IMG/VR virus record: IMGVR_UViG_3300025112_000078
Location: 1-34,363 of that record
Origin: a virus
Strand: one strand, 5' to 3'
DNA length: 34,363 nucleotides
The notes under the pieces were generated by a model. That model was not told where the DNA came from. It searched no databases and saw only the letters and a program-made list of their open reading frames with translations. Below are positions 3,001-30,945 of this stretch, piece by piece. A program made the position numbers and the translations under genes. Position 1 is the first letter of the stretch. Every line of letters begins with the position of its first letter.

Positions 3001-3683
3001 GGAGCTTGTTTACTTTCTAAATCGGGATATAAGAAAGTGTATACAGAACTTAGTCTGGATCCTCCTGATTTATTAGTGGAATCCGTCACGGTTAATACAG
3101 GAGAAACTACATTAATTCCTGAAGTACAAACTCCGTTGGTCTGCCCTATACCAGAAAATAAAGTAGCACTTAAATCAGCAGCGATAAATTTCGTTATTAA
3201 AGGAACACTCACATTGTAAGTAGGAGTAGTTACACCCATTATGCAGGAAGACGTAGTATAAACTTTAGAATATGCTCTATTTATAATTTCAATAGAACCC
3301 CCCTCTTCAATTCGGAAATTATGTAGCTCTAATTTCCCTAAATTTCCAAAATTACAAACTTCAATTAGAACAGGGAAGCGTACAATTTTAGGAATAGCTG
3401 CTATACAAGAACTTAGATCAGTGAATAGATTAGAATTCGCCTGTAAGCTCGCAGTATTAGCATCTGCTGATACTGTAAGAGCAAAACCAGTAAGCCCTGA
3501 TGTGGGGAATCCCGCTTGCTCCCACGACTCATAAGTTCTTTCTTCCAAATCATATAGGGGCATATTATCCTGCTCCCAGTTATAGAAAGAACTTGTATCA
3601 AATTTAGCTACAGTTGGAGTCCATGAATTATAGAGCTTTACGCTCCCACTACTTGTATAAATATCGCCTGCTCTGAATACCAT
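1..3683 (-). CDS. Large beta-helix virion protein, 3' end outside window
   Basis: An open frame of 1227 codons starts at the ATG at 3683 and runs off the left edge without a stop (I checked every codon by eye). The start overlaps the previous gene's stop as TAATG. The N-terminus (MVFRAGDIYTSSGSVKLYNS) and a segment near residues 30-60 (NWEQDNMPLYDLEERTYESW) look like a conserved virion-attachment module of T4-like phages, from general recall. From about residue 300 to 800 there are many short strands of the type NSxVxLxN (for example EVTNSDVVLENCAAV and FNNSKVMLSRSAF). These fit a right-handed parallel beta-helix, as in tail spikes and pectate-lyase-like proteins. A role as tail fibre, spike or appendage is inferred from this fold and from its place at the end of the baseplate operon. 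No catalytic residues could be assigned. Confidence 0.8.
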   Translation of the reverse strand, partial: MVFRAGDIYTSSGSVKLYNSWTPTVAKFDTSSFYNWEQDNMPLYDLEERTYESWEQAGFPTSGLTGFALTVSADANTASLQANSNLFTDLSSCIAAIPKIVRFPVLIEVCNFGNLGKLELHNFRIEEGGSIEIINRAYSKVYTTSSCIMGVTTPTYNVSVPLITKFIAADLSATLFSGIGQTNGVCTSGINVVSPVLTVTDSTNKSGGSRLSSVYTFLYPDLESKQAPLTVGIQNTVANFAPGNLGNTADDNFFFGVDPYENVNTDNTIGTSYDFSCINPLDDGLMRRAAPTINTSAGGSVYLNHLMKLSIKNCDGPIYVRNFVVDGYNQTVNTGRPTGIEVTNSDVVLENCAAVRCREAGFKFNNSKVMLSRSAFAYRNYDLSADNARYPDRGIGFHAVNSDVTLSANLSATVERAVPGEFQGSGIDVMMCASRNTTGMRLDNSKFTGGVGRSVSNNIQTGGISTFELNSKNGIELYNSNLNLVGLLDVYSNPEGIVVENSNLKYRDLCVEDQQHTGLVATNSKISVDSSAYPGAAGQTRSRQTDFSHNGQHIDLQSNSHFTFVKKPNIPNLYGNMSFLYAHGRETYTGASQPVLTYPAINVENSKADFLNAYILPRDVDNATIAPQYGLAVRAINNSTVDFYGTKNGATFIIGPTTYVTQQYAAGIYAKNNSTLGLHGPTFIGQFGVDALVEDNSVLNINPPIEKATYLPAVSAFDLSDTGNHTSVELHSTRACLVANKNSTINLENLGAFDHCWDNSPTGRTVMDYGVDYDIQSPYGLSGLFGAGCLQFFPNPQNSNAMGDNDFANLSANNGPGNKALTQFRALISPTFTTHTTNTDGNPNVINQFTVAQDYYGGAFPATGGDMRRACVGGVCVRATGDSQVNAINVNFPIGLNSTPMDGIYFNVSGTECDRLMIWNFADTSRLNASYCSVSAMYPYDVGYHGPSAVWASATMPDNSAETDAGVAASGAPSSTPETGILSVLDTFGAGSSVWYAPSGVGFNEPFGRFITVSSSYNNNNTIGGNPLQEITHAGIAMSGLGFVGQVSTRMDGTDAGIYGAGVDTYENQGVFRLYFSTKPETKLLQNDMSGYHNGTPLGHEFYGVLGPAYQVYSQCYNMSGPLSALMTDPNNAFSNISGTYPNLLKLSHDSDGDGIFDSLWTSGFYYCEEFVDDNPTQCLLDESAANTFANAKNASIGMSGRPKKVTIYRARASDQIGAEANEGNAS

Positions 3684-4318
3684 TAGAAATTAAGTGTCCA
3701 TCTAAATATTAAACTAAAATCACTAGTTTTACGTATGTTGCTAAAAGTTCGATAAGCTACCAAAATAGAGGCAGTAGGACTACTATCCCCCCTCGGATTC
3801 TTTGCCAATAAACCAATCTCATTAAGATATGTCTCATTTGATTGAGAATCCGCTAGACCATTACATGCTTCATCATCTACCACTATAGTATAACGCACAG
3901 AATTATCTGCTATTCGTGTAACCTTATTTGCAGGAATTAATCCAAAAGCTACGCCTGTGGTATCGTTTTCATTAGTCATTTGAGTACCTTCCGCTATAAA
4001 CAAATTACTTTCTGATCCATAACTAGTGGTAGCCCCTCTTAAAGTTAAAGGACCAGACAACTGGTAAGTAGTACTAGTTTCTAAAACTCCTGTAGCTACA
4101 TTAGTTGATCTCCCTGACACCCCTAATTGAAATCTGTCTATTTGATAATCTAAAACTACATGAGAACCTGAGGCTGTAAATAGATAAGCTAAATTAACCC
4201 CCATTCCTGACACAATAATATTGTGATCATCAAAGAGAACCTCTTCAACCCCATCATTATATCTTTTAATAATGGTCAGATGTCCATTAATACCTAATTC
4301 ATCTGTAAAATTTTTCAT
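3683..4318 (-). CDS. Small baseplate-appendage-type structural protein
   Basis: I do not recognise a named family. The longest frame starts at 4336 (MEIALPM...), but I prefer the ATG at 4318. It forms an ATGA overlap with the stop of the upstream gene, as elsewhere in this operon, and gives 211 residues starting MKNFTDELGINGHL. The protein is beta-rich with no signal peptide or membrane segment. Its ends resemble those of the 395-residue neighbour. The N-terminal part has a pattern G-x-L-x-I...D-x-N-I-I-V-S-G-x-G near residues 10-40, and the end reads DFSLIFRWTLNF where the neighbour ends LLIKWRLHFL. The two are probably diverged paralogues that join the baseplate to the beta-helix protein encoded next. 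That role is inference from position. Confidence 0.8.
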   Translation of the reverse strand: MKNFTDELGINGHLTIIKRYNDGVEEVLFDDHNIIVSGMGVNLAYLFTASGSHVVLDYQIDRFQLGVSGRSTNVATGVLETSTTYQLSGPLTLRGATTSYGSESNLFIAEGTQMTNENDTTGVAFGLIPANKVTRIADNSVRYTIVVDDEACNGLADSQSNETYLNEIGLLAKNPRGDSSPTASILVAYRTFSNIRKTSDFSLIFRWTLNF

Positions 4319-5502
4319 AGGAAGTGCAATCTCCATTTAATTAATAAATCTTTATAATTTATACAGCCCGCCTCATCTGGACTAGCATTTTTATCTTTAA
4401 TTTTTGCTATATTTCTTGTAAATGATTTATTAGAAAACAATCTATATGTCCTAGGATTATTTAGAGGATCAAACGCATAAGGAGGAGTATTTCCTTTGAG
4501 AAGAGATGCAGGCATGTCTATTGTCCATAATCCCATATTAAATAGACCCCCATATAAGTTAGCTGCTCCCACATCCCCTGATCCCATAGTTACAGAATAT
4601 TCTACCGTATAATCATTTATTGCCGAAGTTGCATTTGATGATCCTGAGAGACATAACCCACTATATGTACTACTCATTTCATATATATACCCCCCCGCAG
4701 CCACAGTGCGTGGAGTTCCAGACATAACCATATTCACAAAACCAGAAATATCCATAGAACTAGCTTCGTTAAATACTCCTTGATAGGGAGGTTGCTTTCT
4801 ATTAGTTCCGCTCCCCCCTCCGTGATAGACTACCTCAGAAGAACGGAACGCCGTCTCACGGAACCCAGAATAATCTGTCCCGCCCACTCCTCCTACTCCC
4901 TGCTGTGTAGGTTGACCAGACCCCGCAGGCCAGCATCCTATAAGAGAGGCACATACAGAAGATAGAGACGATAGAAGGGTACTACTAAAAACAGCCGTAT
5001 GATATGCAGATGGAATTAAATTTAAATTTTGCCCATTTCCTGGGATAATAGAACTTAAATCAATTCCACTTACTACTGCTGATACATCACTACTTAATTC
5101 TAAAGTAGTTAGTGTGGGGTCAGGATAATGAGGTAAGACATTAAGAGGTGAATAAGAACTTAAATTAAAAAACGAAGCAGTAGTAGCAACTTCGGGATCT
5201 CTTTGATTGAGGACAGCAATAACTGCGCTGTTAATATAGATACCAGATAAAAGGGTTGCCTTTGCCTCAGAGTAAGCGTGAGCATTTTGCTGATACTGAT
5301 TCGCTGCTGTCCCAAAAGATATAGCTTGAATAGTATAATTAGAAGTATCCAACATAGAGGATGTAGCATGATCTTTAATTGCCGACAAAGAGGGGGAAAC
5401 TGTCATAATATCAGCCAGTAAAGTTCCCGCTCCATCTACAATAAGATTATCCTCCCTTACTAGGAGCTTATCGCCACAATATATTTCAACTTCTCCTCTC
5501 AT
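4315..5502 (-). CDS. Baseplate-appendage-type structural protein, paralogue of next gene
   Basis: This 395-residue protein starts at an ATG immediately after the TAA of the 1513-residue gene, with no clear Shine-Dalgarno, which suggests translational coupling. The N-terminus reads MRGEVEIYCGDKLLVREDNL, followed by IVDGAGTLLADIM. This matches the pattern at the start of the following 211-residue protein, and the C-terminal LLIKWRLHFL also has a counterpart there. The middle (about residues 60-330) is an expansion rich in Ser, Gly and Thr, including a Gly/Gln-rich stretch near 195-235, and fits a beta-rich fibre or appendage protein. The function is not known. Position after gp7/gpI and before the beta-helix protein is where T4 carries its wedge-peripheral genes (8-11), but I see no direct match to those. 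Confidence 0.82.
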   Translation of the reverse strand: MRGEVEIYCGDKLLVREDNLIVDGAGTLLADIMTVSPSLSAIKDHATSSMLDTSNYTIQAISFGTAANQYQQNAHAYSEAKATLLSGIYINSAVIAVLNQRDPEVATTASFFNLSSYSPLNVLPHYPDPTLTTLELSSDVSAVVSGIDLSSIIPGNGQNLNLIPSAYHTAVFSSTLLSSLSSVCASLIGCWPAGSGQPTQQGVGGVGGTDYSGFRETAFRSSEVVYHGGGSGTNRKQPPYQGVFNEASSMDISGFVNMVMSGTPRTVAAGGYIYEMSSTYSGLCLSGSSNATSAINDYTVEYSVTMGSGDVGAANLYGGLFNMGLWTIDMPASLLKGNTPPYAFDPLNNPRTYRLFSNKSFTRNIAKIKDKNASPDEAGCINYKDLLIKWRLHFL

Positions 5503-8500
5503 TTAATTATCTGTCTGTATGAGTGTGTAATTATTAAAACTACTTTGTTTCGCAAATACCATTACTTGGGGATGTAATCTATAATTTAATCTACTTCCTC
5601 CACTTACTCCTAAATCACTCTTCTCAAGACTAGCATTTACATTAGGACCACTCTGCCAGTCCCTACCAGCCAAGTTCGTTGCATATAATCCAGTCCCACT
5701 ACCACTTAAACCTTTAAAGAATTTTAACGTATCTCGTAATTGGTCCTTATCATAATCTAGTCTATCTTCGGTTACAAAAGGTCTTAAAGGAGTTCCTAGA
5801 GTAGGAACGCCTGTACCTGTTCGTATTCCTGCGTTATCTCTTTGTGTAGAATCTTCTAAAGAAATCGTGTCAATTAACATATACTTTTCAGGAACAGCGG
5901 GGGTCATAAAAAAGATTTCCACAATATAATTTGTATCGTCTCTATGTACTTCATCTCTTAACTTATAAAATCTGTCAGGGATTGGAATTATGTCCTGATG
6001 TTCGTAATTATTATAGATTGTATAATTTCGCGTATCAAAATTTAATTCGAATGTATCAAAATATTCATCACGTATATTATTTAGAGTGACATTGTTCACT
6101 ACATCTACAGACTCAGTAGTATTGAAAAGACAAAATGTTTCAGTTCCTGGTGGTGTTTGTTTGGGAGGAAATCCAAAGAGATGAGAATAAGATATCACAT
6201 CGCTCTTAGCTGTTTTATAACTGTCCTGCATCTCCCACTTACCTTTAGAAGTCCATGACCACATATAACCACTTCCAGTTAGTGGATCAAAAATAGGTTG
6301 AGTATGAATCCATACTCCCATTTGACCTCCTCCCATCTGAGGAGAATTTTCTTCGGCTATTAAGGCTTTAATTTTGAGCTTAAATTTATGATTTTTTATA
6401 AAATAATTTCTTCTCTTTCCATAAGAAGATAAATCAAATCTTATGCGAGGCAATCCTGCTGCGGTTTTACACTTAATGACAGGATTCCCAATTAAATAAT
6501 TTTCTTCTTCTTGTTTTTTATACACCTTATCAATGTTAAATATATAGAAAGCATTTCCTATAGGACTCCCAGAAGTATTACAAAATTCTACACCACTTAA
6601 TATATGCGGATTTCTAAACTCACCATTATATGGTGCTCCTGAAACAAACTCGTATCCCGATAAGGGGACTACACAATCTTCTGCACCACTTGCTATATAA
6701 GTTCCCGAAGCAGGAACATTATCAATGCCTACAACATAACTCGCCACAGCGTACTTACTAAATACGCCAGAGGGGCTACTATCAATAGCACGCCCTGTAT
6801 CAACACTAGAAGCAATATAGTCTACCCCTGACGCTACAACAGCCGATCCTTCTACAGAGAAATCACAATTATATAAACCCTTCCCAAAAACCTGAGCAAA
6901 GATATTTCCCCCTGTTTCATCAACTTCCCTAGCTCCTAAGGGATTAAGGAAATACTTATTATAATCTTTATTTAAATCTTGTACTCCCCTTCCAAATGCA
7001 AAGTTTCTATAATCATCAAAAGAGTTTAAGACTAACCCACTAGCAATAGCACTATTCATATAACTCTGGTGTTCATTCTTCCAATAAGAATTAGGAGTAG
7101 TACTAGCGTCTAAATCCGCGTAAAAACTCGCTTTCTTATCAAAAAATTTGTGCATTGTAATATAAATAGGAGGAATTTGTCCTCTATCAACATACCTAGC
7201 TGTAGATGCTGAAAATTCATCCCACTTTGCATTAGATCCCAAAGCACTTAACCCTCTGTATGGGAAAGTAGTATTAGTAATTACCCCAGAAAAAGCTCTA
7301 GTAGAATTTAAATCTTCACAAGCATGCCACACTCCAGAAGGATTAATAGGATCAACAATAGGAAAGAATTTTCCGGCTGAGGGGACATATCCTAGAGTAT
7401 TTTCTCCCATACCAGAAGCGAGAGTGGGCGTTCCAGGGGCCTCCTCACCGCCTGCCGCTGGCTTACCAAACATAGAATACTCAATTGTAGAAGGATCCCA
7501 ACTATGGGGAGAGTTAAAACCAGTTCTATCATAATAACCTTCAGTGGGAAGGGTATACCTAAAGTTTCTCCTGCGTATTGCTCTACGCCCAGTTGCACCA
7601 GTAGAAAGATAACTTAGACCATTTAATAGCGGGTCAGTTGTTAAATTATCAACATCCGTTCGTTGAAAAGTATTTAATCCTCCTCTTCCATCCTTTGTTC
7701 CTGGGGCTTGTCCACCCATATCTAACCCACTAAATTCAAAGCCAGCTAAAACAGATCCACTTCCATAACTAACAAAATTATCATCTTTATCCAGAGATAA
7801 GTATGACCATCTAGTAGAAGATATATCATAGGGATCTAATGCACTTGCATTCAGATTAGTTTTAACTATAGAGTGCCCAGGGGAATAAGTTTTTGCTACT
7901 CTAGATGCGTTATATAACGCATACTTAGAATCTCCTTCATATGTTGTTTTAGCAAAATCAAAATCTGTATTATCAAAATCTAAAAATAAATGTGAAGACT
8001 TACCATTCCATAATCCTAATAAATTATTTTGGTATTCTGAAATCCTTCCTACCACATCATTGTAATTAGGGGGAGTTTGAACTGAACTAAAAAACATTAG
8101 GAAATCATTTAGACTTCCTAGATTAGTATCATCAGTAATTCCTTTATCCAAAATAAAAGATTCTACTGAGCTTGCAAAGCTGGGTGGCACTCCAAAGCAC
8201 TCTAACCGTTCTCTTAAAACAGAAACCAACCCTGGATTTAAAGAACAATCTTTATAATATTTGATCTCTTCAAACGGTGGGATAGGATAATTTACATGAT
8301 TTCTGTAATTAAAGAAGAAAGTTAAATCTCCTGTAGCAGAGAGATAAAGATGTGTAGCCCCAGGCGCAGGATCGGGATGAGCCTCTTCTGCCATATAAAC
8401 CCCATACCCTAATGGTCCGTCGCTGTGAGAAGCTTCCCATGCAGCTATCTGACCCCTCTCCAAGGCCTGCCTTTTAAATACCTCATACCCTCCATCCTGA

Positions 8501-10044
8501 GGTCTATGAACATGAAAGGGTTTCATTCCAGGCTCATTAGTAATTGTATATAATTTTGTTATGTCTCCAAAATCATCGAGTTCGTATAGTTTACTAGTAG
8601 GCCAGGGCTCTCCTGCTATTAAAAAGTAAGATGGAAATTTTTTATATAAATCTAATAAGATTGAATCTGTTACTAATTTTAAATTTCCCTCTAAACTACT
8701 TGTATTATATAGAAATACTCCCGCCTCTACAGCTAACCCAGGTGTCCAAGTGGTCAAATCCCTAAAATAAGGAGATTCAGTAGCTAAACTGTACCAAATT
8801 AAATGAGGAATATAAGATTCCCATAACTCTTGTACTCTTCCCGAAACATCCAAGACCGAATCAACAATTAAATGATCAACGGCAAACTGTATAGCGTTTA
8901 AAGTTCCCTTTTTCTTTTGAAGATTTACAGCTTCACGTAATTGCTGTCTCCATTTAAAAGCAGACCCACCCCATAGCTTGAAACCTATTAACTCTGCTAA
9001 ATATTGTAAGTGCTCACTTTCAGCATTTTCTATATCATATATAAGACCTACTTTTTCTACCTGATCTGTTACATCAGCCATACTGAACCCAAGTCCAGTC
9101 AAAAATTTCCTTAAAGGTCCTTTAGATACAAAATCTACTAATTCCGTAGACGCTCCAATGTAACTATCAAAAGCATCCTTAACTGTAAAATCCTGCTGAT
9201 CAATATATAAGGGAGAATAAATTACATCTATTAAAGTTAGTAAATTTTCTAGCTTTTGAGTTCCACTTGTATAAGTAGCTGGGATGCCTCCTGCACTTGG
9301 GGAGTACACAGCATCCGTCGCCCCCGAAACATAAGTATCATCTATTAATCCTAAATTAGAAAATACAGTACAGGTAGCATAATTTCTCCATATAAAATTT
9401 TCGAATCCTTTAATTCCATCAACTGTCTCAAGCTCGTTTCCCAAGTACAACGAATTTAAGGAACTTAATACGTATCCCGATGGTTCCCAATTGAGGCCAC
9501 CGCCCGCAGAGGTATTAAGAAAATAAAACCATCCTAATTTATCTATAAGATAATTATGAATACTACTTCCATCTGTACTTCCTGTAAGCCCAGACAAATA
9601 TGCTATGTTATCTCCTACTCCTCCCCCCTGAGATCCAGTAGTTAGTGTAATTGCAGGTAAGAAAGTCCCTGATAGAAAATTATTAAAATCTGTACTCGTA
9701 TCATAATGAGCTAGAGTAGTATTAAGAGGAACAAGTATTTGAGAATCAAAAGAATAAGGAGTAACTTTTGTTAGTTCATTTTGTTTTACAAAATAGGGAG
9801 ATATTCCACTGATGTTATCTATAGAAGAAGTTGACGAATTTGGTACGGCTGAAATGGAGAGTACCTGCGAGATGTTATTAGCAGCCCGTAAATTAGTATT
9901 AATAATACGGGAAAGGGGATTTAATTCTTGTCCACTTAAAGTTAGATCTTCTTCCAAATATAATTCAGGAATTACTGTTTCAAGTAAATCACCAAAATTA
10001 CGCTTGGCATAAGTTCTAGGATTAGGTGTAAATTTATTACTCAT
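5503..10044 (-). CDS. Baseplate wedge protein with P2 gpI-like domain (gp7-like)
   Basis: At 1513 residues this is one of the largest proteins in the window. Near residues 335-395 it has the hallmark of the tail protein I family: a helix with HLQYLAELIGFKLW, then FKWRQQLREAVNLQKKKGTL, then NAIQFAVDHLI. In P2 this protein and in T4 gp7 are wedge components that work with gpJ/gp6 and gpW/gp25, and the next two upstream genes here are exactly those. The rest (residues 400-1513) is beta-rich with many aromatic and Gly/Ser segments and may form peripheral wedge or fibre-docking domains. T4 gp7 is about 1030 residues, so this version is considerably larger. The ATG overlaps the gp6-like stop as TGATG, so it is probably coupled to it. 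Confidence 0.85.
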   Translation of the reverse strand: MSNKFTPNPRTYAKRNFGDLLETVIPELYLEEDLTLSGQELNPLSRIINTNLRAANNISQVLSISAVPNSSTSSIDNISGISPYFVKQNELTKVTPYSFDSQILVPLNTTLAHYDTSTDFNNFLSGTFLPAITLTTGSQGGGVGDNIAYLSGLTGSTDGSSIHNYLIDKLGWFYFLNTSAGGGLNWEPSGYVLSSLNSLYLGNELETVDGIKGFENFIWRNYATCTVFSNLGLIDDTYVSGATDAVYSPSAGGIPATYTSGTQKLENLLTLIDVIYSPLYIDQQDFTVKDAFDSYIGASTELVDFVSKGPLRKFLTGLGFSMADVTDQVEKVGLIYDIENAESEHLQYLAELIGFKLWGGSAFKWRQQLREAVNLQKKKGTLNAIQFAVDHLIVDSVLDVSGRVQELWESYIPHLIWYSLATESPYFRDLTTWTPGLAVEAGVFLYNTSSLEGNLKLVTDSILLDLYKKFPSYFLIAGEPWPTSKLYELDDFGDITKLYTITNEPGMKPFHVHRPQDGGYEVFKRQALERGQIAAWEASHSDGPLGYGVYMAEEAHPDPAPGATHLYLSATGDLTFFFNYRNHVNYPIPPFEEIKYYKDCSLNPGLVSVLRERLECFGVPPSFASSVESFILDKGITDDTNLGSLNDFLMFFSSVQTPPNYNDVVGRISEYQNNLLGLWNGKSSHLFLDFDNTDFDFAKTTYEGDSKYALYNASRVAKTYSPGHSIVKTNLNASALDPYDISSTRWSYLSLDKDDNFVSYGSGSVLAGFEFSGLDMGGQAPGTKDGRGGLNTFQRTDVDNLTTDPLLNGLSYLSTGATGRRAIRRRNFRYTLPTEGYYDRTGFNSPHSWDPSTIEYSMFGKPAAGGEEAPGTPTLASGMGENTLGYVPSAGKFFPIVDPINPSGVWHACEDLNSTRAFSGVITNTTFPYRGLSALGSNAKWDEFSASTARYVDRGQIPPIYITMHKFFDKKASFYADLDASTTPNSYWKNEHQSYMNSAIASGLVLNSFDDYRNFAFGRGVQDLNKDYNKYFLNPLGAREVDETGGNIFAQVFGKGLYNCDFSVEGSAVVASGVDYIASSVDTGRAIDSSPSGVFSKYAVASYVVGIDNVPASGTYIASGAEDCVVPLSGYEFVSGAPYNGEFRNPHILSGVEFCNTSGSPIGNAFYIFNIDKVYKKQEEENYLIGNPVIKCKTAAGLPRIRFDLSSYGKRRNYFIKNHKFKLKIKALIAEENSPQMGGGQMGVWIHTQPIFDPLTGSGYMWSWTSKGKWEMQDSYKTAKSDVISYSHLFGFPPKQTPPGTETFCLFNTTESVDVVNNVTLNNIRDEYFDTFELNFDTRNYTIYNNYEHQDIIPIPDRFYKLRDEVHRDDTNYIVEIFFMTPAVPEKYMLIDTISLEDSTQRDNAGIRTGTGVPTLGTPLRPFVTEDRLDYDKDQLRDTLKFFKGLSGSGTGLYATNLAGRDWQSGPNVNASLEKSDLGVSGGSRLNYRLHPQVMVFAKQSSFNNYTLIQTDN

Positions 10045-11648
10045 CAGTCTAGTAAACTAATATTCAATGTAAGATTATTTAATTGTATTATTTCATTAAA
10101 ATCTACTGAAATATCAGTATTAAAATTATCTACAGTAGAGAATCTAATAGCATCAATTTCAAAAATACGTCTATTCAATTCAGTAACATATAAGGTTTGT
10201 CCAAAACTCATATTTTCTACATTCATATAAGTAAGAATTTTATCCCTAGCTCTAGCTGCTATTGCATCTTGTCGAGCTTCGTCTTTCTTATCAATATAAA
10301 TAGTTACTATAAGATCTAAAGTTCTAATTAAACCATCTACAATTACAATCTCATCCGTTGCCATCTTCTTTTTATTAATAGATGTTAGCAGTTGAGTTTT
10401 GAAGGTAGGGGTAGCTTTCTGGAGTTGTACATCAGAGGCTTTTTCTAGTACATAAATATCAATAACATTAGCTGAACTATAAGCTTTTCTAGTGGTAGCG
10501 ACAGCTTTTCCTATAGTACCAAAAGTACTAATAAACGTATTTGCAAAAACCATATAATCTTCTAAAGTTACAAGTCTATCCTGTCTCGCAAAAGTAAGGG
10601 GAGCCCATTTTTTAGCATGCTCTACTGTTTCAGCATTCGCCCCTCCTGTAGCTATGGAAGTATTTGTGATAGCTCCTGGTCTAGCTACTCCATTAGTTGT
10701 AGCTATTGTAGTTGCATTTATTGCAAATGGATTTACGTTCCCTCTAGACCCTCCTCCCACTCTATATGTGACAAAATATGACGCAGTATCATCAGGAGAA
10801 ATTCCTACTGTCCCATCCCCAAATACAACTGTAGCGTTATAATTAGTTCCCTCTATTAGTTGGAATATCCTATCGGAACCTCCCGAAGCGAAATAAAGAT
10901 TATCTACTTCAGTATAAACTCCCGAAACACTTGAATCAGGAGACGTAACAAAAACTTCTACACTTCCTTCAATGACAGGAGCTTGAGTTAGTGGAATTGT
11001 TTTAACTCCTTCCGTACTCCCAAAACCTCCTGAATCTGTAACTAAAACTCCCTCTTGAAATACTAAATTACTGTAAACAGTTTCTACTTCAGGATTGTCA
11101 CTCTCTGTATTATACAAAAGAATATTTCCTGTAGGATTTGCTTTATCCACCAACCCATTTACTACCTTATATAGAGTATACGTCACAGAACCCCCATCCT
11201 CAGGAGAAGTAATACTTACAGTTCTAGCCGTAGGAGGAAGAGTATAATAAGCCTGTCCTCCTATATCAGCAGGGGGATCAGTAAAAATTATTTGTGCGTT
11301 GGCTGCGGCTGATAGAGGCCCGCGCATTCGCACCCCCACTAATTGAAGTAATTTTTTTATACTAGACCGCTGTTGTGCCGTAGCAAAAAAGTTTTCGTTA
11401 GCTAACATATCTGCTTTCATGGACATTACAGATCCCATATAAGCGACTAATTCAATAAATACCATTCCTAAATCAGATTCTACAAAATAAGTATACTCTA
11501 AAGGATATACAGCTTTTATATATTTAATTAACGAATTTCTTAGAGAAAGATAATCCGTAGCCGCGAAATCAATAAGAGATGGCCTCTTCCCTATAGGGAG
11601 ATGGGCAAGATTCATAAAATCCGACGCTATTGTTCCAGAAAAACTCAT
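10044..11648 (-). CDS. Baseplate wedge protein, baseplate J / gp6 family
   Basis: This 534-residue protein belongs to the baseplate J-like family (P2 gpJ, T4 gp6), which forms the ring of wedges around the hub. Diagnostic features are the N-terminal DYLSLRNSLIKYIKAVYP region, followed by an FIELVAYMGSVMSMKADMLA helix near residue 65. Near residues 340-375 there is EHAKKWAPLTFARQDRLVTL followed by EDYMVFANTF, the conserved core of the family. T4 gp6 is about 660 residues, so the length is normal. The start ATG overlaps the gp25-like stop (ATGA). A GAGG ribosome binding site lies 9 nt upstream. Confidence 0.93.
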   Translation of the reverse strand: MSFSGTIASDFMNLAHLPIGKRPSLIDFAATDYLSLRNSLIKYIKAVYPLEYTYFVESDLGMVFIELVAYMGSVMSMKADMLANENFFATAQQRSSIKKLLQLVGVRMRGPLSAAANAQIIFTDPPADIGGQAYYTLPPTARTVSITSPEDGGSVTYTLYKVVNGLVDKANPTGNILLYNTESDNPEVETVYSNLVFQEGVLVTDSGGFGSTEGVKTIPLTQAPVIEGSVEVFVTSPDSSVSGVYTEVDNLYFASGGSDRIFQLIEGTNYNATVVFGDGTVGISPDDTASYFVTYRVGGGSRGNVNPFAINATTIATTNGVARPGAITNTSIATGGANAETVEHAKKWAPLTFARQDRLVTLEDYMVFANTFISTFGTIGKAVATTRKAYSSANVIDIYVLEKASDVQLQKATPTFKTQLLTSINKKKMATDEIVIVDGLIRTLDLIVTIYIDKKDEARQDAIAARARDKILTYMNVENMSFGQTLYVTELNRRIFEIDAIRFSTVDNFNTDISVDFNEIIQLNNLTLNISLLD

Positions 11649-12112
11649 TTAATTAATACCTCTACATCAAATACAGCCAAATCTTCCTCAATAAGTTGAA
11701 GAACTAGTGTAACTTTTAAGGAGTTCCCCCCCGCAGGGCCTACCTCCCCGAAAGGAACTACAGACAATTTTACTATTCTAGCTCCTATAATATATCTACC
11801 AAAGGAGTATAAAATTTCTCTTTTAATAGATTCGAAGGTTGATTCCGTTAGAGGCTCAAACAAATACTTGCGTAAATTACAACCAAAACGAGGAAGCATA
11901 AGACGTTCCCCTTTTTGAGTTCCTAATAATTGCCTAACTGAATCTCTAATAAGATTTCTTCCACTCTCTCTTTTTAGAAAACCCCCCGTATCTCTTCTTT
12001 TTCCAAAAGGAAAAGTAAGTCCATAAGTTACCCTTTGGAGTTCAGCCGTATTCCTATCTAAAGGTGGAAAATATGTAGTTCCATAAGTCGTTACAGTTTT
12101 ATTTATTCCCAT
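11645..12112 (-). CDS. Baseplate wedge protein, gp25 / P2 gpW family
   Basis: At 155 residues, the protein has the complete gp25-like domain. A strand-turn segment with FPFGKRRDTGGFLK lies near residues 35-47. The helix GRNLIRDSVRQLLGTQKGER follows, and then LMLPRFGCNLRKYLFEP near 71-87, the best-conserved stretch of the family. In T4 gp25 is the smallest wedge protein and joins the gp6/gp7 wedge to the sheath; its homologues are essential in all contractile injection systems. The ATG is preceded by GGGAG at normal distance and the stop overlaps the gp6-like start. Confidence 0.95.
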   Translation of the reverse strand: MGINKTVTTYGTTYFPPLDRNTAELQRVTYGLTFPFGKRRDTGGFLKRESGRNLIRDSVRQLLGTQKGERLMLPRFGCNLRKYLFEPLTESTFESIKREILYSFGRYIIGARIVKLSVVPFGEVGPAGGNSLKVTLVLQLIEEDLAVFDVEVLIK

Positions 12113-12124
12113 AGATAAACTCCC

Positions 12125-15100
12125 TTAAGAGAAGGGTTCCTTTCTTTGGTCTAGGTAATTATTAAGAGAATTTAAGAGTGCATAATATACCCTGGCTAAC
12201 ATCCAGTCTGCATTCCCCTGATCCCCTTGATCGGCCTCATTTAATAACCATGCTAAGGGATCTAATGTATCAGCCTGACCACCAAGTTTTGCTGGCATAA
12301 GTAAATCATGTAATTCATACGAATCATAATCTGTACCATCAGCATTTTTTATATGGTACACTTCATCCAATCCTGAACCTTCCTGATCCACATACCCGCT
12401 AGTAGGTCTTATTAACTTCCAAACACCACCGCTTGCATTAGGTAGACTGCTGTAAACCGCTGTCGTATCAGCCCCAGAGGTTTGATAATGTCCCCATTTA
12501 TAAGGGCTGGCGCTTATACTTAATCCCCGTCTTCTCTCCCAAGGTTGCGTAGGATTACCACTCATACTACTATCGTTAATCAGGTCATTATCTACATCAG
12601 TAGTAACTAACGCACCAGTCGAACCTGCGGGGGATGAGTCATACTTAGCTTTCTTCCCTGTAAAGGTTCCTTGAGTTGCCGATGTTATTACCCCATCAAC
12701 ATCAAAATCAGTAGCTGCTGATGCAGTAGAATTACCCATCGTCTTAAATACTTCAGCAAATGAGTAGTTCCTGTTATTAGTAGGAGCACCACTTAAAACA
12801 GGTAAGAAAGAATGTCCCTCAAATCTCTGCGGTAAAGGTCCAGTTAAAGGAACATTTTCTTTAGTGATTCCAGCAATTTGTGCTATAGTAGCATACATAT
12901 CAACAGCATCTACAAAAACATCAGTAGTTCTATTTCTTTCTGTAATGAATGAAGCACTTACAATAAGAGGAACTCTGGTCCCTCTTTCATAAACTGAATC
13001 CTTCATTCCTCTAGCCTTGTCTAGATCTCCCCCCTTTCTATTAGGCAAATATGTTTCTCCTTGACCCTGAAGCCACTTCGTATATACAGGGCCTAACCCA
13101 CTATTATCCGCGTCATTAGTGCCCATGCCGCCACCCCCATTATAGAATCTGAGAGCACTAGCGTAGACATTCATAGTGTCCATGTTATTATAATCAGACC
13201 CGTTATCTCCCATAAAGATGAAAACAGTTCTACTTTTCTTTGTTTCATCAATAGAGGAAAGGAAAGAACTTAACATCCAGTCCATATCTTCCACCTGAGC
13301 CATTTGGTTCACCCAAGCTGCACTAGCATTAACACCCGCTTCGTCCTCCTCTGTTATTGTAGCTGGCGTGACCCTTGACTCCTGATAGTAACGATCATAA
13401 TTTCCTTGAATACTATTCGAGGAAAAGAAAAGATCATTGTTATAAACCATAGCACTAGGAGGATACGTATTCGGTTGATGTGCAGCGTTTAAGGGTAAAT
13501 ATAAAAAGAAAGGTTCTTTTAGGTGGTTGTATGTATCAACTGCTTCAGCTATAGTTTTATGAGTTGCGTAAGAGGAAAAATCTCCTTGATTGTATGCTAT
13601 CCTATCCTCTGGAGAAGTCCCACCCCCTGCTGCGTCGGTTCCTGAAAGAGATTGATCAAATGAAGTGTATCCATAATCAGAAACAGTTAGAACTGTTCCA
13701 TTCTTATTCATATAATAATTTATATACCCCATTTTTTCATCATGAACGCCTTGTCCTGTTTCCCAATACGCAGCCCCATCCTTAGTTGTAAGATCATTAT
13801 GTCCTGGCATTGGAGGTTTATTCAAATTCCAGAACATGGCTCGATAATCATCCCACTTCCCTACTGCTGATATATGATCCCAGCCTGTGCCAGAAGCTGA
13901 TTGAGGTGTAGGATAATCACCATTATACTCATAGTAGGAACCTAATTGATCCCACTCAGCTAAATGCCATTTTCCAACCATCCCACTTCTGTAACCTTTT
14001 GATCTTAATAACTCAGGTAAAATCTTAAAGTTAACTCCTGAAGTCCAAACAGACTCTCTGCCATCAGCGGAACGAACAATTTGAGATAAAGGCTTCACCC
14101 CACCACTAGCATCATACAATATGTACTCATTCCCTAATCCTTGAAGACCTCCCCATAACTTTTCAGACTTAGTAGTTCCTACAGTACCCATACCATGTCC
14201 CCAATATCCCGACACTTGATCGGATATCTTGAAATTAGGACTACTAAAAGCCTGCTTACCTGTTAAAATAGATGCTCTAGTAGGTGTGCATAGTGGTGTA
14301 GCGTGAGCATTCATAAATGTCACCCCGTTTACAGCTAAACCACTCAAAGTAGGAGTATGGGGGTAAAGATTTATTCCATCAGTTTCATGCCCTGGATCTA
14401 AATTACTGAAAGGAGATGATACACTTTCAGCAACACCAAGATCATATGGATTTTGAGAGTGATACATACTTAAATTATCTATTCCTATATCATCAACTAA
14501 GATTAATACAACATTAAATCCTTCTCCTGTTAGATAATTAAATTCATGTAACTTTAGATCAATATTTTTAAAGTAACCTCTTTGAGCCTCATGGTTATTT
14601 CGCACCTCAAAATCATTAATAGGTTTTCCATAAAACTTGAGACTTCCTAAATGCCCCTTAAATCCACTTTGGAGCCCTCCTCTGTCTCCTCCCATAAAAT
14701 TACCATATTGATACATACCATCAGTATAGCCACCCCCAACTATCCAAGGAGTATAGAATGGGTTTAAACGGGGTCCTTCCTGGAGTGTAGACGGACCATC
14801 TACTGTAGTTGAAGAATATTCAAAACTATTGTCCTTCTTAAAAGAAGGTAAATTTGGAGTTGTAAAGGCATCTACACCAAATACAGCGTCAATACCAGAC
14901 GTAGTTACTAAAGATCCGTCTACATAGAATCTTATTTCATTTGTAGTAGGATTTAGGGTGACATCTACCAAAATAAAGTTAGAAGAAACATTTCCAAAGG
15001 CTGTATCTACTAAATCTACCTTCATTTTATAGAAAGTAGCTACATTTTCGCACACATCCTTATTAATCCATGAACAAGACGAAAAATCCCGTGATTGCGT

Positions 15101-17278
15101 AGGAGCTATAAAGAAACTTAATGACGATGCGGGGTCATTTTGTTCATTATTATTACTATAACCTGTATTTTCTTGTGTAATACGCCTATCCCGTGTAAAT
15201 CCCATTACCATCCCACGAACAAATTGATCTCCTCGATCATTTTCTAGATGATCGAGGTCTCTAGGTACTCCTTGATGATCTAACGCCGATGCTCCTTCTT
15301 TCGCTCCCACATTTTCACACCCTAAAATTACTTTTGTTAAGGAAGAAGCAGTTGCACTGGCCCATCCATCCCCTGCATTTGTAATATCTGGAGCATATGC
15401 CCAAAATTCAATGGAAAATCCACTAGGATTATATGTTAAATCTCGGAATTCAGAAGTATCAGGCAATCTACTAAAGGATCCCATAGCCGACGCGCCTATA
15501 TTGTTAGTTGATTTATTCTTAGTAATCCCCTCAAAATAAGGAATAGAGAGTCCATATGGGAATACACTAGGTCTATTTGTCCCTAATAATTTAGCATTAT
15601 TGTACTGATCTGTAGTAGCACAGTTAGTTATGAAATAATCAGTAGAAGAAGGAGTTACTAGCTTAGTTTCTAAGAAATTATAAATAGCAAAAAGATTTTC
15701 AGTAGCTATTTGATCAGTTAAAGAGAGAATTGTTCCATCCTGAGTCCCTGAAGCACTATAAATAATACTGCCTTTCCCTACTTTAGGAACATGGAGATGC
15801 CGAAAACCTATAGAAGCGGGTTTAGGAGGAGCTTGAACGAATGTTGTCTGAATAGGAAGTACCATCCCTGTTACTTCTCCTTGCTCAAAGACTAATGCCT
15901 TTTGTTTCTCTAAATCTACGGTTAAATTATATTCTTCTAAGTAGGCAAAGTCATTGATTGGCACCTTTCCCATAGCAAAAGGAGGGGATGTACCTGACGG
16001 TCCATATATTTGAGGAGCTTTATAAGCTATTTCTATCTGTTTTTTCCTTCTATTAATCTTACTATTATGATTAGCTATTTCAGATATTATCTGTTGCCTC
16101 TGATTTTGGACAATTGATGAGTCATCTCCGTATTGAACAATATAATCCTGTAAACTTCCAGATAGATCATAAATATGCTTATCCCTTTGTCCTAGTAGGA
16201 CATTTAAAAAGTGATCTTTATCATAATTAGCTTGCATACCTAAACTATCGTCAATTCTAAAAACATCAAATATATTTTCAGTGAATTTATTAAGAGATTT
16301 TATGGAAACTGCGTCCCCTTTTCCCCCTAAGTTGGGATCATAATTATAAGTCCACGCATCTCCAACGGGAACTATCCCCGAAATAGCTAGAATAATAGGA
16401 TCAAGTCCTCCCGTTTGAGAATCGTAGTAAAGACCGTCTGATGTGAGAATATATTGCCCAGTAGTAGCAACAGGAGGTCCATAAACTAATCTAAATACAT
16501 CTCCTTCGGCATCCTCTATTTCCTCGTCTTCTTCTAACCCAGGGTCAGGAACGGCACATCTCGGAAGATTTGTTCCTGAGAAAATCCAATCAAATTCAGG
16601 AGAATCTGAGAAACAAGGCTCTAACTCTGGATTAGCTTGTCTCTCCTGAAAAACTCTATTAATCTTCGCAATCATATCATTACAATTATTAATGAATTCT
16701 GATGCATTGTCAATTCGTGCCTTAGCCCCAGCATTCATAGTAGTTATGAGGGCATCTTGTTCGTCAGGAGATAAGGAAGCATTCATAGTACTCGAATTTC
16801 CACTATTAAAAGATTCAAGATCCTTAAGTTTATTAAAACAATCAATTATACTATTTACCTGATTGCTAATATTTTCATAATTTGCATACAAAGTGGCCGC
16901 CCCTGCTGATATAGCACCAAACCCTGCGGCAAGAGCGTTTATTTCACCCAAAATACTTAGATTATCATTATCCATCCCCAAATAACCATCATTTACTTTG
17001 AATTGAAATAAACCTGTATCAGTATTAAATTCAATAAGTCCATTATCTGCTAATTCTGTTTTTACCCATTTTGAAATATCAGACATTGCATTTGCTTTTC
17101 CTTGAAGGAAAGAGTCCTGTATACTTCCTAATACACCCCCAGGCAACAAACTAAGAGCATCTTGAGCTAAACTAAACAAACAAGTAGGAAGTCCCCATGA
17201 CATTCCTATAGATTGAAATAAGCCTGCACCTCCTATTTGCTGTATTCTTAAATATGAAGTAAGATCAAAAGCACCCAT
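12125..17278 (-). CDS. Giant baseplate-module protein with LamG-like and sulfatase domains
   Basis: One uninterrupted 1717-residue frame with three parts. Residues 1 to about 600 are unassigned and include helical stretches and an acidic patch near 235 (LEEDEEIEDAEGD), perhaps for virion attachment. Residues about 615-905 look like a LamG/concanavalin-type lectin fold (GFSIEFWAYAPD, then EIRFYVDGSLV, then GHLGSLKFYGKPI). Residues about 920-1715 form a type I sulfatase. D929 and D930 (VVLILVDDIG) are the first metal ligands. PLCTPTRASILTG contains C997, which a maturase would convert to formylglycine. GYRSGMVGKWH contains K1103 and H1105. GDNGSD (D1358, N1359) supplies further metal ligands. 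The predicted activity is hydrolysis of sulfate esters on a polysaccharide, after lectin binding. Its place between spike and gp25 argues for a virion protein. Maturation would need a host formylglycine-generating enzyme, as none is encoded here. Substrate is unknown. Confidence 0.9.
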   Translation of the reverse strand: MGAFDLTSYLRIQQIGGAGLFQSIGMSWGLPTCLFSLAQDALSLLPGGVLGSIQDSFLQGKANAMSDISKWVKTELADNGLIEFNTDTGLFQFKVNDGYLGMDNDNLSILGEINALAAGFGAISAGAATLYANYENISNQVNSIIDCFNKLKDLESFNSGNSSTMNASLSPDEQDALITTMNAGAKARIDNASEFINNCNDMIAKINRVFQERQANPELEPCFSDSPEFDWIFSGTNLPRCAVPDPGLEEDEEIEDAEGDVFRLVYGPPVATTGQYILTSDGLYYDSQTGGLDPIILAISGIVPVGDAWTYNYDPNLGGKGDAVSIKSLNKFTENIFDVFRIDDSLGMQANYDKDHFLNVLLGQRDKHIYDLSGSLQDYIVQYGDDSSIVQNQRQQIISEIANHNSKINRRKKQIEIAYKAPQIYGPSGTSPPFAMGKVPINDFAYLEEYNLTVDLEKQKALVFEQGEVTGMVLPIQTTFVQAPPKPASIGFRHLHVPKVGKGSIIYSASGTQDGTILSLTDQIATENLFAIYNFLETKLVTPSSTDYFITNCATTDQYNNAKLLGTNRPSVFPYGLSIPYFEGITKNKSTNNIGASAMGSFSRLPDTSEFRDLTYNPSGFSIEFWAYAPDITNAGDGWASATASSLTKVILGCENVGAKEGASALDHQGVPRDLDHLENDRGDQFVRGMVMGFTRDRRITQENTGYSNNNEQNDPASSLSFFIAPTQSRDFSSCSWINKDVCENVATFYKMKVDLVDTAFGNVSSNFILVDVTLNPTTNEIRFYVDGSLVTTSGIDAVFGVDAFTTPNLPSFKKDNSFEYSSTTVDGPSTLQEGPRLNPFYTPWIVGGGYTDGMYQYGNFMGGDRGGLQSGFKGHLGSLKFYGKPINDFEVRNNHEAQRGYFKNIDLKLHEFNYLTGEGFNVVLILVDDIGIDNLSMYHSQNPYDLGVAESVSSPFSNLDPGHETDGINLYPHTPTLSGLAVNGVTFMNAHATPLCTPTRASILTGKQAFSSPNFKISDQVSGYWGHGMGTVGTTKSEKLWGGLQGLGNEYILYDASGGVKPLSQIVRSADGRESVWTSGVNFKILPELLRSKGYRSGMVGKWHLAEWDQLGSYYEYNGDYPTPQSASGTGWDHISAVGKWDDYRAMFWNLNKPPMPGHNDLTTKDGAAYWETGQGVHDEKMGYINYYMNKNGTVLTVSDYGYTSFDQSLSGTDAAGGGTSPEDRIAYNQGDFSSYATHKTIAEAVDTYNHLKEPFFLYLPLNAAHQPNTYPPSAMVYNNDLFFSSNSIQGNYDRYYQESRVTPATITEEDEAGVNASAAWVNQMAQVEDMDWMLSSFLSSIDETKKSRTVFIFMGDNGSDYNNMDTMNVYASALRFYNGGGGMGTNDADNSGLGPVYTKWLQGQGETYLPNRKGGDLDKARGMKDSVYERGTRVPLIVSASFITERNRTTDVFVDAVDMYATIAQIAGITKENVPLTGPLPQRFEGHSFLPVLSGAPTNNRNYSFAEVFKTMGNSTASAATDFDVDGVITSATQGTFTGKKAKYDSSPAGSTGALVTTDVDNDLINDSSMSGNPTQPWERRRGLSISASPYKWGHYQTSGADTTAVYSSLPNASGGVWKLIRPTSGYVDQEGSGLDEVYHIKNADGTDYDSYELHDLLMPAKLGGQADTLDPLAWLLNEADQGDQGNADWMLARVYYALLNSLNNYLDQRKEPFS

Positions 17279-17281
17279 TTT

Positions 17282-18547
17282 TTATTCAACTCCCCCTTCT
17301 CCATAATTAGGATAGTCAGAACCAATAATTGGAATAGCGGGAAGAGAGAGTTCAGAATTTAAGTGAATTTGTGTTCCATCAGCATTAATGTTACCTCCAG
17401 ATTGAATATTAACATCTCCTCCTGCCGCTAAATTAAGATTACCCGTTGCTCTCATATTAATAGTTCCATTACATTCTATATCTATATTTCCCGCTGACTG
17501 TATCTCTACCTTTCCCGAAGATTTAATTCTAATAACACAGTCACCACTCCCATACCCTGGTCTTGGAACTACTGTACCTACTCCTTCACCTCTAGTTTGA
17601 AGTTGAATCACTTGTTGTGACCCTCGGGTATTTAGGCACTCAAGAAAAATTCTTCCAGTTCCAAAGCCGTGAGTGGGAGAATAATTATCTTGTTGGCTTG
17701 TATCAGTAAAAATATTTACATCTTTGAACTTACTTTGAATATTTATATTTCCATACTCTGCATTACTTGCAATAGGAGGAGGTAGCCATTGAATAGGAGG
17801 AGGCAACATGGATTTTTTAGATCCTGTAGACGAATTGAGGATATTAAGCTCCTTACCATCTTGAATTTTTATAGTTGTAGTTCCCCCTGCCGAGTCATAT
17901 AATTGATCTCCCGCACTTTCAACTTGAATTTTTGACATTCCAGGAGCAAACAGTGAAGGATTACCTATTGCGGCGAAATGTTGGTTAGATAAAGTTATCC
18001 TACTATTATTTCCACTATCAAGTATTATGGAATCAACACCAGGAGTATCATCTAGAGTAATTTTCTTTCCTAGAGCGGATACTAGCTCAGTTTTCCAATT
18101 ATAAAACGAATCATTATTCTCTTCAGCTATTATCAACCCTCCACCATGGGATCCTCTGAAACTTTGTCGCATAGGAAGTCCCTTAGCTCTAAGAGATTTA
18201 GAATCCGCAGCCGCATATGGGCTTACTGTAATCTCATCAATTTTTCCTCCTACGATGGAATCATAACTAGGGAAAAAAGTAGATCCTAAGTAAAAGTATT
18301 TTTCTGAATGACTAGGTTTACATACTAAAATTATATTATCCACTACAGGAGGAGCTATAAATCCCCCTTCTGTTTGTGTTACCCAGGGTGAACAGTACCA
18401 GACTGTTTCAGCCCCAGAGTCTAGTCCTGGAAAAAAGATTTCCGCTTTAAACGACCCAGTACTTCCTGGATCATAGATAGAAACCACTTTTGCTAAACAA
18501 ATAATAGTTCCGGCATATGATTGAGCTTCAGATTGGGGTGTAGTCAT
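17282..18547 (-). CDS. Baseplate central spike, gp5/gpV-like, without lysozyme domain
   Basis: This 421-residue protein has the two ends of the spike family. The N-terminal region (about 12-110) fits the OB-fold that docks onto the hub, with IICLAKVVSIYDPGSTGSFK and a WVTQTEGGFIAPPVVDNIIL strand pair. The C-terminal region (about 330-405) is a run of short Gly-ended repeats such as KVEIQSAGNIDIECNG and VNIQSGGNINADG. These are typical of the trimeric triple-stranded beta-helix needle of T4 gp5, P2 gpV and VgrG. T4 gp5 has a lysozyme domain between these parts (575 residues in all). I see no such domain, and the length leaves little room for one. Its stop is 3 nt from the start of the sulfatase gene, so the two are likely expressed together. 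Confidence 0.88.
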   Translation of the reverse strand: MTTPQSEAQSYAGTIICLAKVVSIYDPGSTGSFKAEIFFPGLDSGAETVWYCSPWVTQTEGGFIAPPVVDNIILVCKPSHSEKYFYLGSTFFPSYDSIVGGKIDEITVSPYAAADSKSLRAKGLPMRQSFRGSHGGGLIIAEENNDSFYNWKTELVSALGKKITLDDTPGVDSIILDSGNNSRITLSNQHFAAIGNPSLFAPGMSKIQVESAGDQLYDSAGGTTTIKIQDGKELNILNSSTGSKKSMLPPPIQWLPPPIASNAEYGNINIQSKFKDVNIFTDTSQQDNYSPTHGFGTGRIFLECLNTRGSQQVIQLQTRGEGVGTVVPRPGYGSGDCVIRIKSSGKVEIQSAGNIDIECNGTINMRATGNLNLAAGGDVNIQSGGNINADGTQIHLNSELSLPAIPIIGSDYPNYGEGGVE

Positions 18548-30870: not shown

Positions 30871-30945
30871 GCGGCTGTAGCTCAGTGGTAGAGCGCGACC
30901 TTGCCAAGGTCGATGTCGGGAGTTCAAATCTCCTCAGCCGCTCCA
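30871..30945 (+). tRNA. tRNA-Gly (anticodon GCC)
   Basis: A full cloverleaf is present: acceptor GCGGCTG pairs with CAGCCGC, the D-arm is GCTC/GAGC, and the anticodon stem CGACC/GGTCG holds the loop TTGCCAA with anticodon GCC. The T-arm is GGGAG/CTCCT around TTCAAAT. A T discriminator and an encoded CCA (30943-30945) follow. GCC decodes GGC and GGU glycine codons. Such tRNAs may supply translation of the many glycine-rich virion proteins; that is inference. Confidence 0.95.

Follow-up and report, generated by a model that had tools for sequence, protein, structure and literature searches.

The window analysed here, the whole stretch of 34,363 nucleotides, makes up a single 34-kb virus record (IMG/VR record IMGVR_UViG_3300025112_000078). 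Its minus strand carries, at positions 12125..17278, one unbroken frame of 1717 residues with an ATG start, encoding a baseplate-cluster scaffold protein with a C-terminal sulfatase; the plus strand of the same interval has stops throughout in the frame translated. The frame was divided as follows, with all parts on the minus strand: residues 1-600, the conserved N-terminal part of the scaffold, which occurs without the sulfatase in related phages (15479..17278); residues 620-908, a tentative LamG-like (concanavalin-type) region closing the scaffold, labelled on weak PF13385 matches found in relatives only (14555..15421); residues 909-917, a linker (14528..14554); and residues 918-1717, the type I sulfatase module (12128..14527). 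The first-pass annotation had read a sulfatase and a long N-terminal region in one frame, tightly packed between the spike gene and gp25. The frame is intact, and the gaps are 3 bases on the spike side and 12 bases on the gp25 side.

The fusion is encoded between the spike and gp25 in a conserved, colinear T4-like baseplate cluster. On the spike side lies a baseplate spike-like protein of 421 aa (17282..18547, minus strand) matching phrog_9992 (E 5.7e-6) and phrog_13211 (E 4.3e-5). At E 0.01 Pfam recognises nothing in the spike, and hence no lysozyme is seen in it, in line with the earlier remark that this enzyme is missing. On the other side follow, all on the minus strand, a gp25-like baseplate wedge protein (11645..12112; PF04965, E 6.7e-11), a gp6-like baseplate wedge protein (10044..11648; phrog_219, E 1.9e-38), a large baseplate-cluster protein of 1513 residues with Tail_P2_I, gp7-like by position (5503..10044; PF09684, E 1.1e-6), and a phrog_5417-like protein of 217 aa (3683..4336), a duplicated relative of which bears the sulfatase in the class B phages described below. 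The cluster also encodes a T4_baseplate hub-like protein (PF12322, E 9e-18) and a gp53-like protein (PF11246, E 1.3e-5); genes for a UvsW-like helicase, a primase and an exonuclease lie in the surroundings as well. A near-identical longer record (63.7 kb) contains a tail sheath and a large terminase, both of which resemble those of T4-like phages. At window positions 3683-5502, the 217- and 395-residue proteins resemble paralogues, their first and last segments being similar by eye, which suggests that the cluster uses the phrog_5417-like fold several times. A tRNA-Gly gene (GCC) is located at 30871-30945, between a helicase gene and a structural-looking gene.

Assembly error was considered as a source of the fusion, as the near-identical record L001 is split at this gene. 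Two short exact duplications of 56 and 116 bases (at ~10156 and ~11340 of L001) break the fusion frame there; elsewhere L001 is >99.9% identical to the window, and the duplications look like unmerged contig overlaps. Gene bases 1-2157 are covered by L001 at 99.9%, and L002, a separate near-identical record, is colinear at 99.7% over gene bases 2047-5154. Because L002, L001 and the divergent records with the same intact fusion agree, the frame is no assembly chimera; that explanation was rejected and is given hardly any credence.

A type I sulfatase, as had been proposed from the motifs, was recovered by HMM search: Pfam Sulfatase (PF00884) matches the fusion in two stretches at E 4.7e-30, with 105.4 bits against a curated cut-off of 25. 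The two sulfatase signatures are intact as described (PLCTPTRASILTG from residue 995, including C997, and GYRSGMVGKWH from residue 1095), and the metal ligands D929, D930, D1358 and N1359 stand where they had been placed. The maturation motif C/S-x-P-x-R is present as CTPTR at residues 997-1001, with C997 (codon 14288..14290) as the predicted formylglycine site. The remaining codons of the active site, on the minus strand like that of C997, were assigned with reference to Pseudomonas arylsulfatase (PAS): the metal ligands D929 and D930 (14489..14494; PAS D13 and D14), inside a Pfam stretch; K1103-W-H1105 (13964..13972; PAS K113 and H115); H1267 (13478..13480; PAS H211); D1358 and N1359 (13202..13207; PAS D317 and N318); and K1426 (13001..13003; PAS K375).

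Conservation was assessed in 20 aligned viral rows (10 of class A and 10 of class B), from which 4 of 24 records were excluded as split, partial or near copies and in which the near copies window and L002, and L140 and L141, are still included. All ten PAS active-site residues are present in the window's module and are identical in the viral rows wherever these can be read. D929, D930, C997, P999, R1001, K1103 and H1105, and so the C, P and R of the maturation motif, are the same in 19/19 readable rows (L016 is cut there), and H1267, D1358, N1359 and K1426 in 20/20. With an E limit of 0.001, a profile of 12 viral sulfatases matched 75 distinct sequences of solved structure, with PAS at the top (1hdh, E 1.8e-25) and GalNAc-6- and carrageenan sulfatases ranking near it. 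In the profile alignment, viral residues align with PAS position 51, R55, K113, H115, H211, D317, N318 and K375; D13 and D14, which lie outside the printed profile alignment, were placed by motif.

Some formylglycine enzymes of the sulfatase superfamily hydrolyse phosphodiesters or phosphonates, and the domain might instead cleave such an ester on phosphate-bearing surface glycans. A phosphonate monoester hydrolase is indeed among the solved matches (4upk, E 2.1e-7) and NCBIfam PehA matches weakly (E 1.1e-5), but the arylsulfatases score far better, and we regard cleavage of another ester as improbable. An AlphaFold model of the sulfatase, built on an alignment of the 12 viral sequences and no cellular ones, had a mean pLDDT of 31.8, too low for the catalytic pocket to be judged from it. 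The phage collection gave no match at 1e-5 to the whole 1717-residue protein, and eight weak matches to the sulfatase (best E 2e-4), one of which is an annotated arylsulfatase in a Salmonella record. The family phrog_19870, of which the listed function is unknown, matches fusion residues 974-1014 (E 3.5e-11) and L004 (E 1.6e-9); as the match covers the sulfatase motif region, phrog_19870 may hold phage sulfatases.

The scaffold was followed into other viruses. Virus contigs searched with the first 600 residues yielded 20 loci, and 16/20 encode the protein without any sulfatase (879-908 residues, the shortest being cut at its start), so that the suggested search for this N-terminal part in phages lacking the sulfatase did find such phages. 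After a wider gp6 search (best 80 of 548 relatives), 61 complete scaffold frames without a sulfatase were counted among 138 viral loci, giving 49 distinct module-free proteins of 888-931 residues, one of which belongs to a class B phage. The module-free orthologues sit in the same slot before gp25 and stop at the junction: relatives close on, for example, GFFKNIKI-stop, at the equivalent of residues 906-908, and the fusion continues with GYFKNIDLKLHEFNYLTGEGFNVVLI, the nine-residue linker and then the module. On this comparison the predicted sulfatase is an added module on a conserved baseplate-cluster protein.

The nature of the scaffold itself is less sharply drawn. A LamG-like domain had been named in the first-pass annotation, and this stood only in part: PF13385 found no match in the window's own protein even at E 10, and relatives match weakly, none of those listed above the cut-off. 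At the E 10 limit 11/16 scaffold proteins match (best E 5.2e-5), and at E 0.01 three of seven scanned do, the best with 23.9 bits, below the 27.6-bit cut-off. The LamG or concanavalin-like label for residues 620-908 is therefore kept as tentative. A profile of the 16 scaffold proteins gave one chance-like match among solved structures (E 0.73), the phage collection gave no match to the scaffold at E 1, and an AlphaFold model from 16 sequences had a mean pLDDT of 41.6. Gp10_D3 (PF22670) weakly matches 2/16 scaffold proteins (best E 5.2e-5), and in the protein at L122:2519-5422 residues 275-304 match this T4 gp10 domain 3 at E 2.8e-5, with 24.8 bits below a cut-off of 27; the possible likeness to T4 gp10 domain 3 is only a lead. 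The scaffold of L130 matches the virion structural protein family phrog_8510 (E 3.5e-4).

Four queries (the entire protein, the sulfatase by itself, the scaffold and gp6) together gathered 24 virus records with a related sulfatase, the window included (23 further records). As these comprise near copies (window/L001/L002, L121/L159, L004/L005 and L140/L141), they represent about 19 distinct viruses. Fusion to one of two scaffolds is visible in 22/24, the other two being cut. In class A (12 records) the sulfatase is on the protein before gp25, and the fusion is visible in 10; gp25 and gp6 follow in both cut records, L016, which is ~94% identical to L003, and L159, which is 99.9% identical to L121, whose fusion is visible. 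In class B (12 records) a homologous sulfatase is on a phrog_5417-like protein between a p395-like gene and a large adhesin gene, and a second, short phrog_5417-like gene follows in 8/8 records that reach far enough (two of which are near copies). The predicted class B module is seated on a duplicated phrog_5417-like protein of which the short copy has been kept. Three class B records show the other scaffold in sulfatase-free form: in L015 and L123 its end is visible before gp25, and the long record G008 contains the complete orthologue, of 888 residues and 34% identity.

Other variation was observed around the class B slot. At L209:17507-20275 a duplicated phrog_5417-like protein carries a different C-terminal domain of ~710 residues, followed by a short second phrog_5417-like copy as in class B. 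This domain weakly resembles an alpha/beta-hydrolase (9w30, E 0.0079) and matches nothing in Pfam at 0.5 or in PHROG; a search for its relatives found again only its own record. The p395-like protein has ~600-660 residues, against 355-416, in several sulfatase-bearing records, owing to an insertion (L004:5395-7356, L122:14363-16342, L019:7497-9350 and other class B records); no Pfam match was found in the three long forms scanned. In L015:8489-10000, ~500 residues without a good family match stand between the phrog_5417-like part and the sulfatase.

A free-standing copy of the viral sulfatase was not seen in the 24 records, and this bears on the possibility of an auxiliary metabolic gene whose product supplies the infected cell with sulfate. 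Published lists of viral auxiliary genes include sulfatases (PMC10029852), and 13 sulfatases on potential prophage regions have been treated in this way (PMC11077953). Those are viral sequences too, but auxiliary metabolic genes, and no tail-protein fusion is mentioned in the parts of the two papers that we consulted. With fusion to two different tail-cluster genes and no free copy in these 24 records, a free auxiliary gene was rejected, and an auxiliary role is considered most improbable.

The history of the module was examined in two trees. Of the 73 rows in the gp6 tree, 10 belong to class A, 4 to class B and 55 are sulfatase-free, with 4 of unknown state; sulfatase-free means here that the slot before gp25 was seen with the scaffold's own end visible. 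Class A forms a single clade (100/98) among sulfatase-free rows, with the forks just outside it supported at 93/85 to 100/99, so one gain suffices for class A. The four class B rows are on long branches, and their joining was called unsure by the tool. PF00884 was found in 0/9 sulfatase-free records searched across their whole length, these records being fragments. In the sulfatase tree the 20 viral rows form one clade against 25 cellular rows (100/100). These cellular rows were drawn from among the matches listed by a pattern scan, which may have missed a nearer cellular relative. The split between classes A and B is poorly resolved (68/71 and 76/57). An initial scan of genome contigs yielded no relative; in a second, the 80 retained of 226 were all distant, with identities of 20-53% in their best segments, the top value applying to a segment of 36 residues. 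The dN/dS of the module is 0.32, 0.23, 0.30 and 0.21 in four close pairs, and the viral sulfatase module is under purifying selection.

Type I sulfatases need formylglycine, which in bacteria is made by FGE or by anaerobic maturases before folding. FGE was found in 0/20 phage records and radical SAM proteins in 0/11, all of them partial; with neither seen there, the host would have to supply the maturase. FGE-family matches were obtained in 6/6 bacterial genomes examined, which had been picked for carrying sulfatase relatives, and the family also includes non-maturase proteins. A domain that is never matured could serve as a non-catalytic, lectin-like binder of sulfated glycans, which would be in keeping with the lack of a visible maturase in the partial phage records and with the tentative lectin-like region preceding the domain in class A. 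However, the ten catalytic residues are all kept at identities down to ~32-37%, and the cysteine, lysines and metal ligands need not persist together in a pure binder, so we judge a binding role quite unlikely.

The host was approached from several sides. The best terminase and sheath matches, among those listed (25 each of 2703 and 2584 records), are to phages of many hosts at 27-38% identity. A gp6 profile gave only distant matches (best E 1.7e-27) in bacterial genomes drawn from the phylum of a Verrucomicrobia record (6/387), the phylum of a Pirellulales record (20/392) and the order of a Bacteroidetes record (3/395). Shine-Dalgarno-like sites precede 10/21 window genes against a shuffled mean of 2.4, and under the general rule on such sites in Bacteroidota this excess weakly disfavours a Bacteroidota host.

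Taken together, the fusion suggests that in a group of uncultured T4-like phages the particle itself strips sulfate from glycans on meeting a cell. We favour, as rather probable, a virion-borne desulfating enzyme that would act at adsorption from the baseplate of an uncultured T4-like myovirus and be matured by the host. The annotation had proposed that the virion may carry a desulfating enzyme, and this is strengthened because the module extends an otherwise conserved protein of the baseplate cluster, because a homologous sulfatase is also fused to a second tail-cluster protein, because no copy stands free in the 24 records and because the active site is unvarying in the aligned rows. A complete type I (formylglycine) sulfatase, added to the C-terminus of a baseplate-cluster protein, would be incorporated into the virion close to the spike. 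Before assembly, while the protein is still in the host cytosol, an FGE or anaerobic radical-SAM maturase of the host would convert C997 to formylglycine. At the cell surface the enzyme may then desulfate a capsule, exopolysaccharide or lipopolysaccharide that bears sulfate esters, which would give access to a receptor or clear a path for the spike, by analogy with other phages that deacetylate or cut surface glycans. The lectin-like region before the class A sulfatase would tentatively fit binding combined with desulfation; in class B, however, the sulfatase sits on a different protein, so binding and desulfation need not go together.

Several results count against the virion-borne desulfating enzyme. 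NCBIfam sulfatase models match weakly and fall far short of their cut-offs (48.8 bits at best, where 481 would be needed). Among PHROGs and solved structures, no known virion protein resembles the scaffold convincingly. Most rows of the sampled gp6 clade are without a sulfatase, and activity would depend on a host maturase. The module also evolves somewhat faster than the scaffold (0.16-0.23 against 0.12-0.15 in the same four distant pairs, where synonymous sites are near saturation). An active, virion-borne enzyme might also work on the sulfated polysaccharide of its surroundings (algal particles, mucus or the matrix of lysed hosts) and so promote diffusion or release instead of adsorption. 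Several source records are presumably from seawater, judging by their record number series, and the solved relatives include carrageenan and mucin-desulfating sulfatases; a location beside the spike or a large adhesin, however, suits cell contact better than release, and we hold action on the surroundings to be unlikely, while giving it some weight.

A more specific version of the virion-borne desulfating enzyme is possible, although we would not stake as much on it: particles would desulfate the host surface at adsorption, the enzyme working only if the previous host made formylglycine, and the baseplate would offer two enzyme slots. The first slot would lie at the C-terminal end of the protein encoded before gp25, the second on the duplicated phrog_5417-like protein, which in L209 would bear a different, perhaps alpha/beta-hydrolase, domain. 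Many aquatic cells and particles have a coat of sulfated polysaccharides. If a desulfating enzyme is carried on the particle, phage entry would gain a kind of chemistry new to it, and infectivity would be tied to a post-translational step made by the host, with host maturase activity as a hidden factor of infectivity and host range. Sulfated surface glycans would also be indicated in bacterial hosts. The module-free relatives are a ready natural control.

Among known systems, the T4 gp5 spike carries a lysozyme and is likewise a case of an enzyme near the baseplate spike, whereas here the enzyme is a sulfatase on the protein next to the spike, and the spike is without a lysozyme match. Type I sulfatases (PF00884; 1hdh and the carrageenan sulfatase S1_16, 9fo1) share the profile, CxPxR and the ten active-site residues with the viral module, which differs from them in its ~800 residues inside a phage tail-cluster protein and in forming a clade separate (100/100) from the 25 cellular sequences used. 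The so-called FGE-sulfatase domain resembles the maturase, with a C-type-lectin-like fold. Such domains have been described on phage tail proteins varied by diversity-generating retroelements (PMC12724379), and domains of the FGE type have been reported both as accessory genes and as tail proteins that vary (PMC12724379, PMC11318856); being maturase-like and not sulfatases, the former share only an annotation word with the present module. FGE genes have been reported in Pseudoalteromonas phages (PMC10232697), and the sulfatases of PMC9853417, PMC5175280 and PMC7354516, as far as these were seen, are of bacteria and not of phages. No precedent for a tail- or baseplate-fused sulfatase was found in the literature searched, from which preprints and most subscription papers fell outside coverage, and which was in part seen as excerpts. 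The closest counterparts are virion-borne polysaccharide deacetylases, the tailspike of Acinetobacter phage Aristophanes (PMC8471582) and, reportedly, that of Pectobacterium phage PP99, from which phages are known to alter glycan substituents at entry (PMC8471582). These likewise are glycan-modifying enzymes of the virion that change substituents and leave the chain uncut, the virion location here being deduced from the genes. The chemistry here is predicted to be that of sulfate esters, needing a maturase-made formylglycine, and the enzyme is on baseplate-cluster proteins, whereas theirs is on a tailspike or fibre. Virion-borne glycan-modifying enzymes are thus already known, and a sulfatase in that role did not appear in the literature as far as it was covered; new here are the sulfatase as an added module, its module-free relatives and the second tail scaffold.
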